Assembly: GCA_016210545.1 (NCBI GenBank)
Contig: JACQTY010000166.1
Location: 1 to 50,169, forward strand
DNA from: Chloroflexota bacterium
Lineage (GTDB): Bacteria > Chloroflexota > Dehalococcoidia > JACVQG01
DNA length: 50,169 nt
Reading direction: 5' to 3'
A program made the translations under genes and the position numbers. This document shows, piece by piece, positions 25,704 to 37,623 of the stretch. Under the pieces are notes generated by a model. That model made no database searches. It was not told the DNA's origin and saw only the letters and a list, made by a program, of their open reading frames with translations. Positions within the stretch are counted from its first letter, which is position 1. Every line of letters begins with the position of its first letter.

Positions 25704-26123
25704 GCAGAACCGGGGCGCTGCGGTGAGGTCAAATTGGGTGCAGGCACCATTGACCGCAATAGTTTCCCATTTCATACTGTGGGCAGTTGATCCTGAATCA
25801 CGATCTCTAAACAGGTCCGAATGACCTGAGTCGAGGCCCTAAAGGTAGAGAATCGTTTATGCACGCTTGCGCCGGGCGCAGCGAAGCATAAAGTAGCCTG
25901 GCGCTGTCATTCTGATGGAGTCCCGACGTGTCGGGACGACTGAAGGATCTGGGGCGGAGTAATCCCCGAGCATCCCCAGACCCTTCGTCCCGATGCATCG
26001 GAACTCAGGCTGACAAGAAGCGGCTATTTTCGGGGGAGGGGCTGTCGGGTCATGCGGCCTGTATCTTGTTTGAGATTTGGGGCCCGGGATTTGGAATCTT
26101 CTGCCCGGAAAGGATCCAGAGTT
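25704..26123. other. Gene-free region with palindromes
   Basis: Holds the perfect palindrome GTCCCGAC-GT-GTCGGGAC (25920-25937) and a TCCCGATGCATCGGA element near 25988. No gene seen. Confidence 0.5.
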
Positions 26124-27002
26124 GTGAGTAAGCCGTCGCGCCTTGTCCTTCCTTTGGGCCTTGCTGTGGCACTGGTCGTCGCCGCGCCCGGCTGCTCCGA
26201 CTTCGACGCCCTGCCCGGCGCACCCTCCGACCTGCAGACACAGGGCTTCGACATGTTCAAGAAAAGCACCTTCAAGGAGAAGGCCGACGAGTTCAATGCG
26301 AGATATACGAGTACGCTGGATGACCTTCTCGCCTACCAGGAGAATGCTGACCTGGACAAGATCGAGGCAAAGCGAGAGGAACTGGTGTCAGAAGCCAATG
26401 CCCTGGTAGCCAAGCTGCAGGCCGCGGCCGAGGGGCTGCAGGTGAGCCTTGATCGGTCGACCCAACAGGCGGCAGCAAACCAGCCCGGCGCGCAGACCAG
26501 GGGCACAGACATGGCCTTCCGGAATGCCCTTCAACAGAAAGCCGACGAGTTCTATTCGCAGTATACGGCCGTGGTGGACGATATGCTGGAGTACGAGAAG
26601 GACGGAGACCTCCAGAAGCTGGAAAGAAAACGACAACAGCTTATATCTCAGGCCGACGCCCTTAAATCGAAACTAATAGAGCTGGCAAACAGGCTCCAGC
26701 CGAGGAAGGACAACCCCCCCACGGAGGAGACCACCGGGATCAAGATAGCTGGCATCGACCCTCTGGATAGAAAGGCAGCCGAGGACAAGGCCGAGGAGTT
26801 CTACACAAGATACGCGGCCACAATCGACGACATGCTGTCCTTCCAGGAGCAGCCGGATTACAGGAAGGCCGAGGAGAAAGGCCAGCTACTGGCGACCGAG
26901 GCAAATACACTGGCCTCCAAATTTCGCGAGACGGCTACCAGGCTCCAGGCTACCCTGGACAGACTGAGAAGGCAGGGATTTGGGCCAGGCAGGCAGCAGT
27001 GA
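26124..27002 (+). CDS. Lipoprotein with three coiled-coil repeats (paralog 1)
   Basis: A 292-residue exported protein, not recognised. A signal peptide (RLVLPLGLAVALVVAAPGC) ends in a lipobox-like APGC, so it is probably lipid-anchored. Three repeats of about 60 residues follow, each with the pattern 'kADEFy.rYt..vDDml.yqe..d..k.E.krq.L..eA..L..k..e.A.rLq': residues near 52-112, 133-195 and 217-280. Each unit is likely a helical hairpin, giving a three-unit helical rod, joined by short Pro/Gly linkers. Start at GTG 26124. The next gene encodes a paralog with the same three-repeat plan, and their ends overlap by a few bases or sit adjacent, so they are one operon. Function unknown, probably envelope structural. 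Confidence 0.8.
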   Translation: MSKPSRLVLPLGLAVALVVAAPGCSDFDALPGAPSDLQTQGFDMFKKSTFKEKADEFNARYTSTLDDLLAYQENADLDKIEAKREELVSEANALVAKLQAAAEGLQVSLDRSTQQAAANQPGAQTRGTDMAFRNALQQKADEFYSQYTAVVDDMLEYEKDGDLQKLERKRQQLISQADALKSKLIELANRLQPRKDNPPTEETTGIKIAGIDPLDRKAAEDKAEEFYTRYAATIDDMLSFQEQPDYRKAEEKGQLLATEANTLASKFRETATRLQATLDRLRRQGFGPGRQQ

Positions 27003-27088
27003 ACCTGGCGGGGGGCGTGTCTGTGGCGCAACCTGGCGACACCGGATATGTGGGCGGAACGAGGTGCAAGGGACGGCGGAGTAACCAG

Positions 27089-28018
27089 ATGGAACATGTG
27101 TCCAGGCCAGACCGGCGGGTCCGAGGCCGGCCAGTCTACTTCATACTGCTGACAGCCCTGCTGTTGGCCTTACCGGCCGGCATCGCCGGTTGTTCCCTTT
27201 TTTCGGGCGAGCTCGCCGGCGCGGACGAGTCCGATACACCAGGTCTGGAAACCCTCACCCGCAAGGCCCTCCAGGAGAAGGCCGATGAGTTTCAGGTCAG
27301 ATACCGGGGACTGCTGGACGACATAGCTTCGTACCAGAAGGACCCCGACCACAAGAGGGCCGAGGGGCAACGTCAGAAGCTCATTATCGAGGCCAACTCC
27401 CTTGCGTCCGGTTTTCACGAACTGGCCGATGCGCTGCAGTTGAAACTCGAACAGCCGGCGCCCGATGGGGCCGGCAGCGCTCCCCCATCGGAGATCGGTG
27501 GCATCGACATACTGAATAGGAAAGCCTACGAGGCGCAGGCCGACGAACTCCGCCGGAGATACACCGGGATCGTCGATGACCTCAAGTCCTACGAAAAGGA
27601 CCCCAACTACCAGAAGGCCGAGGAGAAACGGCAACAACTCATTTCAGAGGCCCGCGCCCTGGCCGCCGGTTTCAAGCAACTGGCTGACAGCCTCGATCCC
27701 AGGCGAGTCAGGTCTGGGACCCCTGAGGACTTCCCCGCCGAACTCGGCGCGCAGACCCTCGGCATAGACATATTCGACAAGAAGGCCGTGCTGGCCAGGG
27801 CCGATGAGTTCTATTCCAAATACACGGGGGCAGTGGAAGACATTTCATCTTATCAGAGCAATGCCGACTACAAGAGGGCCGAGGAACAGCGGAGGAACAT
27901 GGTGGCCCAGGCCGACTCCCTGGCCTCGTCGTTCTACGACCTGGCCAACAGGCTCTTGAAAGTGCTGGGTAAACTTGTCCCCGGTATTGAGGAGGTAGGC
28001 AAGCTGCCACCACGGTAA
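27089..28018 (+). CDS. Lipoprotein with three coiled-coil repeats (paralog 2)
   Basis: A 309-residue protein, paralog of the preceding gene. A basic N-terminus and hydrophobic stretch (FILLTALLLALPAGIAGC) end in a good lipobox GIAGC. Three repeats follow: KALQEKADEFQVRYRGLLDD, KAYEAQADELRRRYTGIVDD and KAVLARADEFYSKYTGAVED begin the units, and each closes with 'A..LASgF.eLAd.L'. Linkers contain the repeated phrase GIDI(L/F). ATG 27089 is chosen; the longer frame from 26999 starts inside the previous gene's stop region and lacks a signal-like start. Units in the two proteins are more alike than expected by chance, so the pair arose by gene duplication after the internal triplication. Confidence 0.8.
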   Translation: MEHVSRPDRRVRGRPVYFILLTALLLALPAGIAGCSLFSGELAGADESDTPGLETLTRKALQEKADEFQVRYRGLLDDIASYQKDPDHKRAEGQRQKLIIEANSLASGFHELADALQLKLEQPAPDGAGSAPPSEIGGIDILNRKAYEAQADELRRRYTGIVDDLKSYEKDPNYQKAEEKRQQLISEARALAAGFKQLADSLDPRRVRSGTPEDFPAELGAQTLGIDIFDKKAVLARADEFYSKYTGAVEDISSYQSNADYKRAEEQRRNMVAQADSLASSFYDLANRLLKVLGKLVPGIEEVGKLPPR

Positions 28019-32606: not shown

Positions 32607-33647
32607 ATGAAGGGTCTCATCAAGGGTAAGCAGGCTTTATCGTTGAGCGCAATACTCGGAATACTGATGGTCATCAGCGCTTGCGCCCCCAGGGAGCCGG
32701 TATCTTCAACACCAGCACCGTCCCAGCCGGCCTCTTCATCTCTGCCGGCGCGGCCATCGGGAACAGGCCCCACGCTAACGGGTAAGATCACTGTGTCCGG
32801 CGCCTGGGCGCTCTATCCTATGATGGTGAAATGGGCTGAGGAGTTCCAGAGGACAAACCCCGGCGTGAAGATCGATGTGTCGGCGGGGGGAGCGGGAAAG
32901 GGAATGGCTGACGCCTTGTCCGGCCTGGCGGACATCGGCATGGTAAGCCGCGAGGTTTACCCTGTGGAGATCGACAAAGGGGCGTTCTACGTGCCATCGG
33001 TGATAGATGCCGTGGTCGCGGTTGCCAGCGCCGGGAATCCGTTCAAAGACGATATCCTGGCCCGGGGCATAGGGAGGCAGGCTTTCACTGGTATCTGGAT
33101 AAACAGGAACGTAGCTAACTGGAGGGACGTTTTCCCGGGGGCAAAGGCTTCCGGCAAGACCGACATTCACGTTTATACCCGCAGCGACGCCGCGGGCGCG
33201 CCGGAGACCTGGGCCAAATACCTGGGTGCGAAACAGGAAGACCTCCTCGGGACCGGCGTCTATGGCGACCCGGGACTGGCCGAGGCAGTGCGGAGAGACC
33301 CGCTGGGGATTGGCTTCAACAACATCAGCTATGCCTATGACATCAGGTCCGGGAAACAGGTGGATGGATTGGTGGCCATCCCCATCGACGTCAACGAGAA
33401 TGGCAAGATCGACCCTGAGGAGGCAGTTTACGGCTCCCTGGACGACATAACCCAGGCAATAGCCAAGGGGGTCTATCCATCCCCCCCGGCCAGAGAGCTC
33501 AATCTGGTGACCCTCCGGGAGTTCAAGGGAGTCACCAGGGAGTTCATCAAGTGGATTCTAACCGAGGGGCAGAAATATGCTCCGGAGGCGGGCTATATTC
33601 CGCTGTCTCAGGCAAGGGTGGATAGCCAGCTTCCCAAACTGCGGTAA
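32607..33647 (+). CDS. Pst-like ABC transporter substrate-binding lipoprotein with altered anion site
   Basis: Periplasmic-type binding lipoprotein of the PstS superfamily, 346 residues. Signal LSLSAILGILMVISAC has a lipobox, followed by a Ser/Pro linker. The fold is PstS-like (ISGAWALYP-type opening after KITV, ADIGMVSREVYP, FTGIWINRNVANWRDVFPG, FIKWILTEGQKYAPEAGYIPLS). The loops that bind phosphate in PstS with Ser/Thr hydroxyls are changed: the first reads GAWALYP, the second AGGAGKG, and the third, normally DGSGT, reads SDAAGAPETW. It should therefore bind a different ligand; given the operon, a sulfur oxyanion is the best guess, tungstate or molybdate less so. ATG 32607 is preferred to the longer frame from 32493. 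Confidence 0.85.
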   Translation: MKGLIKGKQALSLSAILGILMVISACAPREPVSSTPAPSQPASSSLPARPSGTGPTLTGKITVSGAWALYPMMVKWAEEFQRTNPGVKIDVSAGGAGKGMADALSGLADIGMVSREVYPVEIDKGAFYVPSVIDAVVAVASAGNPFKDDILARGIGRQAFTGIWINRNVANWRDVFPGAKASGKTDIHVYTRSDAAGAPETWAKYLGAKQEDLLGTGVYGDPGLAEAVRRDPLGIGFNNISYAYDIRSGKQVDGLVAIPIDVNENGKIDPEEAVYGSLDDITQAIAKGVYPSPPARELNLVTLREFKGVTREFIKWILTEGQKYAPEAGYIPLSQARVDSQLPKLR

Positions 33648-33729: not shown

Positions 33730-34602
33730 GTGTTTGATTTGATATCTAAGAGAAGACTGGCAGACCTCGTATCGACGAGGCTGATGCTGGCGGCGACGGC
33801 CCTTGTCGGCGTCACCGTCCTGTTCATAGCCGTCATGCTTTTCTTGAAAGCCAGGCCTATTCTGGCAACAAACTCGTTGGGCGACCTGTTCCTTTCGTCT
33901 TCGTGGCGTCCCTCCAGGGGCGAGTTTGGCCTGTTCCCCTTTATCATGGGCACCCTGTGGGTGACGGTCCTGGCGGGCATTATTGCTCTGCCGGTCAGCA
34001 TTTTGGGCGCCCTTTACATTACGGAATATGCTCCGCCCAGGGTGCGGGCTGTAGCCAAGCCCGTCGTTGACGTTCTGGCCGGAATCCCGCCGGTAGTGTA
34101 TGGCGTCTGGGGCCTGGTGGCGTTGTCCATCGGCGGCATCGCGATCGGGTTCAACGTGCTGTCCGGCAGCATAGTGTTGGCGATAATGGTAATACCGGTG
34201 ATACTGGGTGTGTCGGAGGAGGTATTCCGGATGGTGCCCCAGGATGTCAAGGAGGCATCTCTGGCAGTGGGGGCCACCAAATGGGAGACAGCCAGGAATG
34301 TGGTCATACGGAGCTCCCTGCCGGGGCTGGCGGCGGCGACGATCCTGGGTTTCTCCCGCGCCTTTGGCGAGACTATGGCGGTGCTCATGGTGGTGGGGAA
34401 CATCGCCAGGGTACCCTCATCGCCGTTGGACCCGGCATACCCCCTGACAGCGCTGATCGCCAACAACTACGGAGAGATGATGTCCATTCCCCTCTACGAC
34501 TCGGCCATCCTGCTGGCGGCCCTGGTGCTGCTTCTGGTAGTGCTGTTCTTCAACATCGCCGCAAGGCTGGTCCTGATAAAGGTCCAGCAGAAGTGGGCCT
34601 AG
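33730..34602 (+). CDS. Pst-like ABC transporter permease (PstC type)
   Basis: Inner-membrane permease, 290 residues, with about six helices. The cytoplasmic coupling loop carries the binding-protein-dependent permease motif: EEVFRMVPQDVKEASLAVGATKWETARNVVIRSSLPG (EAA-loop type, split here). The N-terminal part (SSWRPSRGEFGLFPFIMGTLWVTVLAGIIALP) matches PstC. It would pair with the next permease and the ATPase. The start is GTG 33730; the ribosome site is weak. The stop is directly followed by the ATG of the next gene (no gap), so they are coupled. Normal features of PstC; ligand selectivity comes from the binding protein. Confidence 0.9.
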   Translation: MFDLISKRRLADLVSTRLMLAATALVGVTVLFIAVMLFLKARPILATNSLGDLFLSSSWRPSRGEFGLFPFIMGTLWVTVLAGIIALPVSILGALYITEYAPPRVRAVAKPVVDVLAGIPPVVYGVWGLVALSIGGIAIGFNVLSGSIVLAIMVIPVILGVSEEVFRMVPQDVKEASLAVGATKWETARNVVIRSSLPGLAAATILGFSRAFGETMAVLMVVGNIARVPSSPLDPAYPLTALIANNYGEMMSIPLYDSAILLAALVLLLVVLFFNIAARLVLIKVQQKWA

Positions 34603-35454
34603 ATGCAGCGGAGGAAGACAGAAGAGGCCGTCTTCAAAGGCTTGATGATAGCCTCGGTGTCCATCGTGGCGGCGGGCCTGCTTACCATCGTGGCCGTGAT
34701 AGCCTGGAAGGGTGTTCCGGCCCTCAGCATTGGCATGATAACGCAGACCCCTAAAGGCGGGTTCTACCTGGGCAAAGAGGGGGGCATCCTGAACGCAATT
34801 GTTGGCTCTCTCTACCTGGCCGGGGGGGCTACGTTGCTGGCCCTGGTCATCTCTCTGCTGGTGGCCCTCTTTCTACAGCGGGAATACATAGGTAAGAGTC
34901 GGTGGGCTGGCGTTGTCCGTTTGTCGCTGGACGTCCTGTGGGGGGTCCCGTCCATCGTCTACGGCGCCTTCGGTTTCGTCATTATGGTCTATCTGGGCAT
35001 GAGGGCGTCACTGCTGGGGGGCATTATAGTCCTGACGCTCCTGGAGATACCCATCATGGCCAGGGCCCTGGACGAGGTATTGAGAGCGGTGCCCAGGGAG
35101 TTGAAAGACGCCTCATATGCCCTCGGGACGACGCGTCTGGAGACCAGTTTGAACGTCGTGACCAGGCAGGTATTGCCCGGGATCTTGACCGCCGTGTTAC
35201 TGGCCTTCGGCCGGGGGATCGGCGACGCCGCTTCGGTGCTATTCACCGCCGGATATACGGACCGCATCCCGACCTCATTGCTAGACCCGGTGGCCTCCCT
35301 GCCGTTGGCCATATTCTTCCAGCTTGGCACGCCGTTCCCCGAGGTGCAGGCCCGGGGCTACGCCTCGGCGGTCGTCTTGCTGGTGATTGTACTTCTGATC
35401 GCGGTGGGATCCCGGGTACTGTCCCGGAGACTCACCAAATACGTGGTCAAGTAG
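34603..35454 (+). CDS. Pst-like ABC transporter permease (PstA type)
   Basis: Second permease subunit, 283 residues and six predicted helices. Typical PstA parts: FYLGKEGGILNAIVGSLYLAGGATLLALVISLL, WGVPSIVYGAFGFVIMVYLG, the EAA loop DEVLRAVPRELKDASYALGTTRLETSLNVV and the following GILTAVLLAFGRGIGDAASVLFTAG. It begins immediately after the stop of the first permease and ends 17 bases before the ATPase gene. It forms the heterodimeric channel with the preceding protein. Confidence 0.9.
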   Translation: MQRRKTEEAVFKGLMIASVSIVAAGLLTIVAVIAWKGVPALSIGMITQTPKGGFYLGKEGGILNAIVGSLYLAGGATLLALVISLLVALFLQREYIGKSRWAGVVRLSLDVLWGVPSIVYGAFGFVIMVYLGMRASLLGGIIVLTLLEIPIMARALDEVLRAVPRELKDASYALGTTRLETSLNVVTRQVLPGILTAVLLAFGRGIGDAASVLFTAGYTDRIPTSLLDPVASLPLAIFFQLGTPFPEVQARGYASAVVLLVIVLLIAVGSRVLSRRLTKYVVK

Positions 35455-35471: not shown

Positions 35472-36467
35472 ATGAACGACATCTGCCTCCGCATCCACGG
35501 TCTTAACGTCAGCTATGACGGGCACACGGCCCTCAAGAATATATATCTTGACATCCCGCACCGGCAGATCACCGCCATCATCGGGCCATCGGGCTGCGGC
35601 AAAACGACCCTGCTCCGGTCCATTAACCGGCTGATAGACCTCACCGACGGGGCCAAGATCCGCGGCGAGATATGGCTGGACGGACACAACGTGATGAGCG
35701 ACAGGGAGGACGTCACCTCGATAAGGAAAAGGATAGGGCTGATCTCCCAGAAGCCATCCCCGTTGCCCATGTCCATATACGACAACGTGGCCTACGGCCC
35801 TCGCATCCACGGGATGCGGGATAGGAAAGAGCTGGACAAGACGGTGCGTAGCTGCCTGGAGACTGCCGGGCTGTGGACCGAGGTGAAGGACAGGCTCCAG
35901 TCACCGGCAACCAGGCTATCGGTGGGGCAACAGCAACGTCTGTGTCTGGCCCGGAGCCTGGCCGTCAGGCCTGAGGTCCTCTTGTGCGACGAGCCTACAT
36001 CGGCGCTCGACCCGGTGTCGTCGCAGAACATCGAGAATAGGCTCATCGAACTCAAAAAGGACTACACCATCGTGATAGTCACCCATAACATCCACCAGGC
36101 GATGAGGCTCGCCGATTACGTCGTCCATCTCTATCTGGGCGAACTGGTGGAACACGGCCCGGCCAGCGAGGTGTTCCAGAGGCCCAAGCAGGACCGCACC
36201 CGGGCCTATATCAACGGCACTGTCCTTACGAAGCCACGGACCGACGTTGAGATCAACCTGAAGGGGAAGGTGTGCCCCTTGAATTTCGTCTTCGCCAAAG
36301 CGGCGCTGGAGAACCTGGAGATCGGGCAGGTGCTCAAGGTAATAGTCGACTACCCGACGGCGATAACCGAGGTGCCCCGGGCCATGGAGTACGATGGCCA
36401 TAAGGTGCTGGGGGTGAAGCAGCTTAACGAGACCGATTGGGAGGTAATCATACAGAAACGAGAATAG
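35472..36467 (+). CDS. PstB-type ABC ATPase fused to a C-terminal TusA/SirA-like sulfur-carrier domain
   Basis: A 331-residue fusion. Residues 1-250 are a PstB-like ATPase: Walker A GPSGCGKTTLL, Q-loop region GLISQKPSPLPMS, signature LSVGQQQRL, Walker B LLCDEPTSALDP and the switch His in VTHNIHQAM. Residues 260-331 are not part of PstB: VEINLKGKVCPLNFVFAKAALENLEIGQVL, then VIVDYPTAITEVPRAMEYDGHKVLGV and WEVIIQKRE. This is the TusA fold pattern, with Cys in CPLN at the place of the CPxP persulfide cysteine. TusA proteins relay sulfur and are found with thiosulfate and other sulfur transporters. The fusion links the pump physically to sulfur handling. The ATG at 35472 follows the permease stop by 17 bases; a longer frame opening at 34902 is an artefact overlapping it. 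Confidence 0.9.
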   Translation: MNDICLRIHGLNVSYDGHTALKNIYLDIPHRQITAIIGPSGCGKTTLLRSINRLIDLTDGAKIRGEIWLDGHNVMSDREDVTSIRKRIGLISQKPSPLPMSIYDNVAYGPRIHGMRDRKELDKTVRSCLETAGLWTEVKDRLQSPATRLSVGQQQRLCLARSLAVRPEVLLCDEPTSALDPVSSQNIENRLIELKKDYTIVIVTHNIHQAMRLADYVVHLYLGELVEHGPASEVFQRPKQDRTRAYINGTVLTKPRTDVEINLKGKVCPLNFVFAKAALENLEIGQVLKVIVDYPTAITEVPRAMEYDGHKVLGVKQLNETDWEVIIQKRE

Positions 36468-36559: not shown

Positions 36560-37285
36560 TTGAGAGACAATGTTAGCCTGGAAGAACTGAAGGAGTTGGT
36601 CAACGGCCTGAACTTCGCCGAGAAGGTCGACCGCTCCCTGAGACTCATCGATGAGGCATACAAGGAGTACGGCGACCGCCTGGTGGTCGCCAACAGCCTG
36701 GGCAAGGACTCCGTGGCAGTATGGCACCTGGCCAAGCGGGTGTCGCCGGAGATCCGCGGCTTCATAGTCACCACCCGCTACAAGCCAAAGGAGACCGTGG
36801 AGTTCATGAACCGGGAGGTCACCCGCTATCCGGAGTTGAAGGTGTTCCGTAACGACGCGCCGATACCGGAAGAGCTTTACCGCACCGACCCCGACCGCTG
36901 CTGCGACGTGCTCAAGGTGCAGCCGGTGCAGTGGGCCATAGAGCAGATGAACGTCGGCTGCTGGGTAACCGGGCTGCGCTGCACCGAGGGCAGGACCCGC
37001 ACCGACTACCGCGAGATCGAGGAGCGGGACGAGGGGCTCATCAAGCTGAACCCCATCCTGCTGTGGCATGAGCGCGAGGTGTGGCAGTACCTGGCCATCA
37101 ACCAGGTGCCGGTCAACCCACTGTACGCCAAAGGGTATCGCTCGCTAGGCTGTCTGCCGTGCACCCGCATCACCAACGACGCCAATGAGCGCGCCGGTCG
37201 CTGGGTGGGTACCAGCAAGTGCGGCGGCGAGTGCGGCATTCATACCCGTCCCTTGAAGGTCGGCGCTTCAAGTCAAAGGAGCTAG
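36560..37285 (+). CDS. cysH: CysH-type phosphoadenylyl/adenylyl-sulfate reductase
   Basis: Reduces activated sulfate (APS or PAPS) to sulfite. Residues around 45-60 have the PP-loop VANSLGKDSVAVWHL. Downstream come RCCDVLK, TGLRCTEGRTRTDY and LGCLPCTRIT, so the CC...CxxC set for a [4Fe-4S] cluster is present; this favours APS as substrate, as in assimilatory APS reductases. KCGGECGIH at the end is the catalytic ECGIH motif. The length of 241 residues is normal. The start is TTG 36560, with AAAGGAAGG ahead; the longer frame from 36437 reads through a CCTCTCCC-GGGAGAGG hairpin and is not coding. It is the sixth gene of the operon begun by the DUF2292 gene. Confidence 0.92.
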   Translation: MRDNVSLEELKELVNGLNFAEKVDRSLRLIDEAYKEYGDRLVVANSLGKDSVAVWHLAKRVSPEIRGFIVTTRYKPKETVEFMNREVTRYPELKVFRNDAPIPEELYRTDPDRCCDVLKVQPVQWAIEQMNVGCWVTGLRCTEGRTRTDYREIEERDEGLIKLNPILLWHEREVWQYLAINQVPVNPLYAKGYRSLGCLPCTRITNDANERAGRWVGTSKCGGECGIHTRPLKVGASSQRS

Positions 37286-37287
37286 CT

Positions 37288-37623
37288 TTGCAGTTGGACA
37301 AGGTTCGCGAATGGCTGCCTTTTTTCCGGGGGCACGGCATCTGCTCCAAATGTCACCTTCGTGTGGAGTTCACCGGCGTCCCTCCGGGGAATCCCGCCGA
37401 AGAACTCATAGCAAAGGTAGCTGGCAGCCGCAGGTCGGTGTCGTTGCACTGGCTGGAGGAGCGGCTGGCCGATGCCCTCTACTATGCCGAACTGGACAAG
37501 GGCGGCGGGGTGAACGACATCGGAGTGTGGGGCTGCGCTGTGTTCTGCAAGGAGTCGGCCCGAATGATAGGGGAGATGCGACCGGAGTTTGCCGTGGTGC
37601 GAGACGCAAACTCCGGTCACTAG
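37288..37623 (+). CDS. Unknown CxxC protein at the end of the sulfur operon
   Basis: A 111-residue soluble protein, not recognised. It starts at TTG 37288 with AAAGGAG six bases ahead, overlapping the end of cysH, so it is clearly co-expressed. Visible features: GICSKCHLRVEF with a CxxC near the N-terminus, a predicted helical middle (NPAEELIAKVAGSRRSVSL, LEERLADALYYAELDK) and WGCAVFCKESARMIGEM with two more cysteines. The four cysteines could bind zinc or an iron-sulfur cluster, or take part in sulfur transfer or electron supply to the reductase. A terminator follows. Confidence 0.75.
   Translation: MQLDKVREWLPFFRGHGICSKCHLRVEFTGVPPGNPAEELIAKVAGSRRSVSLHWLEERLADALYYAELDKGGGVNDIGVWGCAVFCKESARMIGEMRPEFAVVRDANSGH

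Follow-up and report, generated by a model that had tools for sequence, protein, structure and literature searches.

The closest described relative of the locus analysed here is the phosphate importer PstSCAB (TIGR02136, TIGR02138, TIGR00974 and TIGR00972), with which it shares the fold of the substrate-binding protein (SBP), the gene order, the type of permease and ATPase, and an arginine, Arg192. However, compared with PstS, the SBP of the window, i.e., the whole stretch of 50,169 nucleotides from a Chloroflexota bacterium that was analysed, is devoid of the four ligand hydroxyls, carries a lysine at position 98 (K98), scores far below the family cut-offs and has sulfur genes adjoining it. 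The Sbp/CysP-CysTWA importer of sulfate and thiosulfate (TIGR00971 and partners) is alike in the proposed job, the uptake of sulfate by an ABC system, but the permeases of the window match PstC and PstA far better than CysT and CysW, and TIGR00971 gives no match to the window SBP at an E-value of 0.1. That a relative of phosphate transporters can carry sulfate has a precedent in CysP of Bacillus subtilis, a sulfate permease of the PiT family according to the passage of PMC11535334 that cites Mansilla and de Mendoza 2000, although CysP is a single-protein permease unrelated to ABC importers. The sulfate importer TK06_RS10770 (PMC11535334) belongs in turn to the TauE family, an unrelated protein family and not an ABC system. 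A full-text search limited to open-access literature found no paper describing such a system. The window SBP and its PstCAB partners probably constitute an ABC importer of the Pst type with a binding protein remodelled for sulfate, judging from the comparisons of sequence and gene context presented below.

The SBP gene leads a same-strand cluster that continues with PstC, PstA, PstB-TusA, CysH and a small open reading frame, all on the + strand. The SBP itself (32607..33647) is a Pst-type lipoprotein of 346 amino acids with a lipobox-like ISAC at about residue 26. It is matched by Pfam PBP_like_2 (5e-28) and is weakly PstS-like, with 95.9 bits against a cut-off of 206.6 for TIGR02136 and 68.7 against 205 for TIGR00975. 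The PstC-type permease (33730..34602) reaches 246 bits with TIGR02138, above the cut-off of 196, while the PstA-type permease (34603..35454; TIGR00974, 189 bits) and the PstB-type ATPase with a C-terminal TusA domain (35472..36467; TIGR00972, 340.6 bits) remain just below theirs, 193 and 343, respectively. With PstC, PstA and PstB scoring so near or above the phosphate cut-offs, automatic annotation would tend to assign these components to phosphate transport. The CysH-type (P)APS reductase that follows (36560..37285; Pfam PAPS_reduct, 1e-40; NF002537 above cut-off) likely starts at a TTG at 36560, a position set by comparison with locus L186. The SBP is encoded beside a gene of sulfate assimilation, as is usual for Sbp/CysP proteins. 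The small conserved open reading frame after cysH (37231..37623) belongs to no known family and has no Pfam match, and its homologues also adjoin cysH in L186 (61%) and L035 (38%). No Rfam element was found in the window. Elsewhere in the window, at 26052-28018, there are two tandem lipoprotein-like genes built of repeated units.

An AlphaFold model of the window SBP, made with 56 aligned sequences, has a pLDDT of 93.9, and its top Foldseek matches are all PstS (TM, by query, of about 0.6-0.73), indicating a PstS-type fold; the 50 nearest solved structures listed include no Sbp. Scanning a single genome for each GTDB species retrieved 156 relatives, of which the best 80, at about 45-70% identity, were kept. 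These 80 come from Chloroflexota, Omnitrophota, Bacteroidota, Thermodesulfobacteriota, Planctomycetota, Acidobacteriota, Bathyarchaeota, Thermoplasmatota and others, and in most of them dedicated PstC, PstA and PstB genes come after the SBP gene; the rebuilt version is thus shared by many anaerobes that are not related to one another. In Prevotella's order, the family is present in 69 of 198 sampled species. Tandem pairs of family SBP genes were also observed (G456:C153, 25380-27270; G588:C21, 32252-34107). In a quick maximum-likelihood tree with a short search, the family forms one clade, on one side of a branch with an SH-aLRT of 99; an unusual control on a long branch lies beside it and, therefore, the exact root of the family is unsure.

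The three anion loops had been read in the original prediction as GAWALYP, AGGAGKG and SDAAGAPETW, which is confirmed in the translation of 32607-33647 (+), and its claim that the phosphate-holding Ser/Thr loops are lost agrees with the alignment, where Ala occupies all four phosphate-hydroxyl positions. Loop 1 (SGAWALYP, residues 64-71; 32796..32819, +) has A68 in place of Thr10 of E. coli PstS; loop 2 (AGGAGKG, residues 93-99; 32883..32903, +), which reads SAGGAGKG with the preceding Ser (residues 92-99), has A96 in place of Ser38, and K98 is new; and loop 3 (RSDAAGAPETW, residues 192-202; 33180..33212, +) has A196 and A198 for Ser139 and Thr141 and keeps R192, the equivalent of E. coli R135. 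T10, S38, S139 and T141 are the phosphate-ligand hydroxyls of E. coli PstS, in the numbering of the E. coli protein. The alignment compares the family with 28 control PstS sequences (MAFFT), and the placement of T10 at A68 was made by hand, MAFFT having set the short E. coli row one column off there.

Among the best 80 of the 156 relatives, Ala is found in 80/80 at each of positions 68, 96 and 198 and, because of this invariance, its presence in the window SBP is not due to chance. Position 196 (codon 33192-33194) is Cys in 72/80, Ala in 7/80 (the window and six others) and Ser in 1/80. A thiol is thus kept in the periplasmic site of most members, at the position where PstS has Ser139. In the same set, K98 is present in 79/80, and D102, the pair N238-N239 and R192 in 80/80. 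Control PstS proteins keep Ser or Thr at the four positions in 26/28, 28/28, 28/28 and 28/28 cases, and all four hydroxyls are kept in 24/24 true PstS from genomes that carry the family (carrier genomes). Of the two patterns used in the family scan, WALYPMM and V[KR]W[AS]EEFQ, the second is clear of loop 1, and A68, A96 and A198 are present in 47/47 loci found by it only and in 20/20 relatives from a pattern-free profile search. A hydroxyl loss that is family-wide, and the same in pattern-independent loci and in a profile-only sample, indicates that the change is old and was selected, rather than the outcome of decay.

The PstS fold and the Pst permeases would also suit a protein that has kept phosphate, alone or together with arsenate, as its ligand, held by the loop amides, the invariant R192 and the new K98; retention of phosphate by backbone amides and R192 is indeed conceivable, and this counts against sulfate. 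The ligand set of a phosphate binder can change, as the PstS of SAR11 exemplifies, the R135-type Arg being absent from some true PstS including that one (PMC12421899). Moreover, the family SBP is the only PstS-type match in 8/40 carrier genomes and, therefore, phosphate use is possible in those carriers. However, the window SBP lacks the four hydroxyls, and the family as a whole lacks three of them, while none has been lost in the PstS of carrier genomes, and most carriers have a separate PstS, which exceeds the family cut-off in 24/40. Such a canonical PstS, accompanied by PstC and PstA and adjoining a histidine kinase (L002, named by motifs and neighbours), is likewise encoded in the window genome, which is assembled into 263 contigs totalling 3.3 Mb and is 94% complete.

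The gene neighbourhood also makes binding of phosphate improbable. A cysD, cysN, cysH or Rrf2 gene occurs at 36/80 family loci (best 80 of 156) versus 0/20 true PstS loci, these being loci of canonical PstS from carrier genomes (p = 4e-5); with cysD, cysN and cysH alone, the comparison is 16/80 versus 0/20 (p = 0.02), and Rrf2 by itself is not specific to sulfur. Clustering of the neighbours of the same 80 loci gave 20 loci with Rrf2, 14 with CysD/CysH and 12 with CysN, and the metabolic genes that recur beside the family are cysD, cysN, cysH and that of sulfite reductase. A recurrent order in deltaproteobacteria and Bacteroidales is SBP-PstC-PstA-PstB-CysD-CysN(-CysH), where both CysD and CysN exceed their NCBIfam cut-offs: in the former, CysD and then a CysN-CysC fusion come directly after PstB, and in the latter a porin precedes SBP-PstC-PstA-PstB-CysD-CysN-CysH. 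The porin beside some Bacteroidales loci is Porin_O_P, a family named for phosphate, which counts against sulfate. In one Prevotella, the PstC and PstA genes continue into cysD, cysN, cysH and sulfite reductase, and the family SBP is located on that contig too, with a porin. In a pattern-free sample from Prevotella's order, cysD, cysN or cysH is nearby in only 4/20 family loci, again a point against sulfate, and, hence, many loci show no sulfur gene.

Several other arrangements were observed around the family. In a Prevotella, L240 (12340-14658) encodes a sulfite reductase that ends in a TusA domain, and its operon also comprises cysD, cysN, cysH and genes for Pst-type permeases. In the Chloroflexota loci L043, L053, L061 and L090, the Pst-type genes are followed downstream by genes for a second, distantly Sbp-like binding protein, for a Usp protein and for one resembling Na/Pi cotransporters. 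A short CysD (~270 aa) and a short CysN occur near the importer or in a carrier genome (L036, L044, L084, L095 and L234), alongside a phosphodiesterase-family protein in L044, L084 and L095; these short sets may serve sulfate activation for sulfation.

The import of another sulfur oxyanion, e.g., thiosulfate or sulfite, would be compatible with the sulfur-gene context, with the TusA domain on PstB and with a window genome that has a sulfite reductase and in which no ATP sulfurylase was found. However, at other family loci no neighbours from sulfur metabolism are commoner than the sulfate-activating CysD and CysN, and thiosulfate and sulfite need neither CysD/CysN nor CysH, which makes such a substrate quite improbable. 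A metal oxyanion (molybdate, tungstate or chromate) or selenate would be allowed by the oxyanion-binding fold, and hydroxyl loss alone cannot separate sulfate from larger oxyanions. Nevertheless, no molybdenum or tungsten genes are among the recurring neighbours, and in the window genome a TupA-type tungstate system, named from motifs and neighbours, is encoded separately at L001, so that tungstate was dropped as a candidate ligand and this class as a whole seems very improbable. The original prediction that the ligand is not phosphate, but rather sulfate, thiosulfate or a metal oxyanion, is thus favoured by the family-wide change and the gene context; among the ligands that it offered, sulfate is the best supported, because of the recurrence of cysD, cysN, cysH and sulfite reductase as metabolic neighbours, and metal oxyanions the least, because of the separate TupA-type system.

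The usual sulfate-binding protein is above cut-off in only 1/40 carrier genomes, SulP is present in 14/40 and absent from 26/40, and family searches of the window genome found neither SulP nor Sbp. Moreover, the position beside a window-type cysH is occupied by different importers. A Pst-type importer is found there in the window, G001, G048 and G050; at L184 (genome G002), a TauE permease replaces it beside an 81% identical cysH; and PiT permeases take this place at L233 and L235 (genomes G104 and G113). A TauE protein and a PiT protein each rescued an E. coli cysA mutant (PMC11535334). To our mind, unrelated, sulfate-capable importers filling one slot beside cysH are the best pointer to sulfate.

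Window CysH contains the catalytic ECGIH and the Fe–S Cys motifs RCCD and GCLPCT, corresponding to ECGxH, CC and CxxC. By motif comparison, it also has an intact PP-loop, SLGKDS (36695..36712, +), which is not kept in the ordinary CysH proteins compared. The window genome has one PAPS_reduct protein and one sulfite reductase, the latter in a cluster with an Rrf2 regulator, ThiF, a cysteine-synthase-like PALP enzyme and a JAB-domain protein, and family searches detected no Sat/ATP sulfurylase in it, an awkward gap that speaks against sulfate. Neither Sat nor full CysD was found in 7/7 genomes with an intact-PP-loop CysH that were searched for both, two of these genomes being of one genus and two only 66-73% complete, and sulfite reductase is present in 6/6 of the seven that were searched for it; of the 11 genomes searched that have an ordinary CysH, 8 have Sat and the other 3 an additional PAPS_reduct protein of CysD size. 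Three further carriers include one with neither Sat nor full CysD, one with Sat and one with short CysD and CysN. A strict rule by which an intact PP-loop in CysH means no sulfurylase, drawn from the 7 versus 11 genomes, was therefore dropped, since two further genomes break it. The CysH subfamily with S-x-G-K-D-S and ECGIH comprises the window, L155, L156, L157, L034, L035, L186, L187, L233, L235 and L236, and is usually, not always, found in genomes lacking Sat or full-length CysD. It is conceivable, though unlikely, that the importer feeds a one-protein sulfate reductase, in which CysH would adenylate sulfate and reduce it to sulfite; if CysH adenylated sulfate itself, no ATP sulfurylase would be needed.

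For the preferred reading, a Pst-type importer of sulfate, the following mechanism could be envisaged. Sulfate, which has no proton to donate, would be bound in the closed cleft through main-chain amides in the three loops together with R192 and K98, and perhaps with W67 or N238/N239. PstCAB would then pump the bound sulfate in, and CysH together with the sulfite reductase encoded elsewhere in the genome would reduce it for cysteine synthesis. The TusA domain on PstB (residues 260-329; 36249..36458, +; Pfam, 1e-17), which has a Cys-Pro motif, CPLN, might sense the sulfur load and shut the pump, or else receive sulfur, although this is a guess. Within the best 80 of 156 loci, the complete PstB-TusA fusion occurs elsewhere only in L034 (4312-5322) and L035 (6535-7545), and a same-genus relative has it in a shortened form, perhaps due to assembly; the fusion was seen only in close relatives of the window.

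The large, old SBP family, the TusA domain on PstB and the unusual CysH go beyond the original prediction. If the proposed function is true, a large number of genes that carry a phosphate-transport annotation would really be devoted to sulfate transport, and a gap in sulfate uptake would be filled for many uncultured anaerobes and gut bacteria. Moreover, the family would represent a natural experiment in the conversion of a phosphate site into a sulfate site, with four hydroxyls out and one Lys in.
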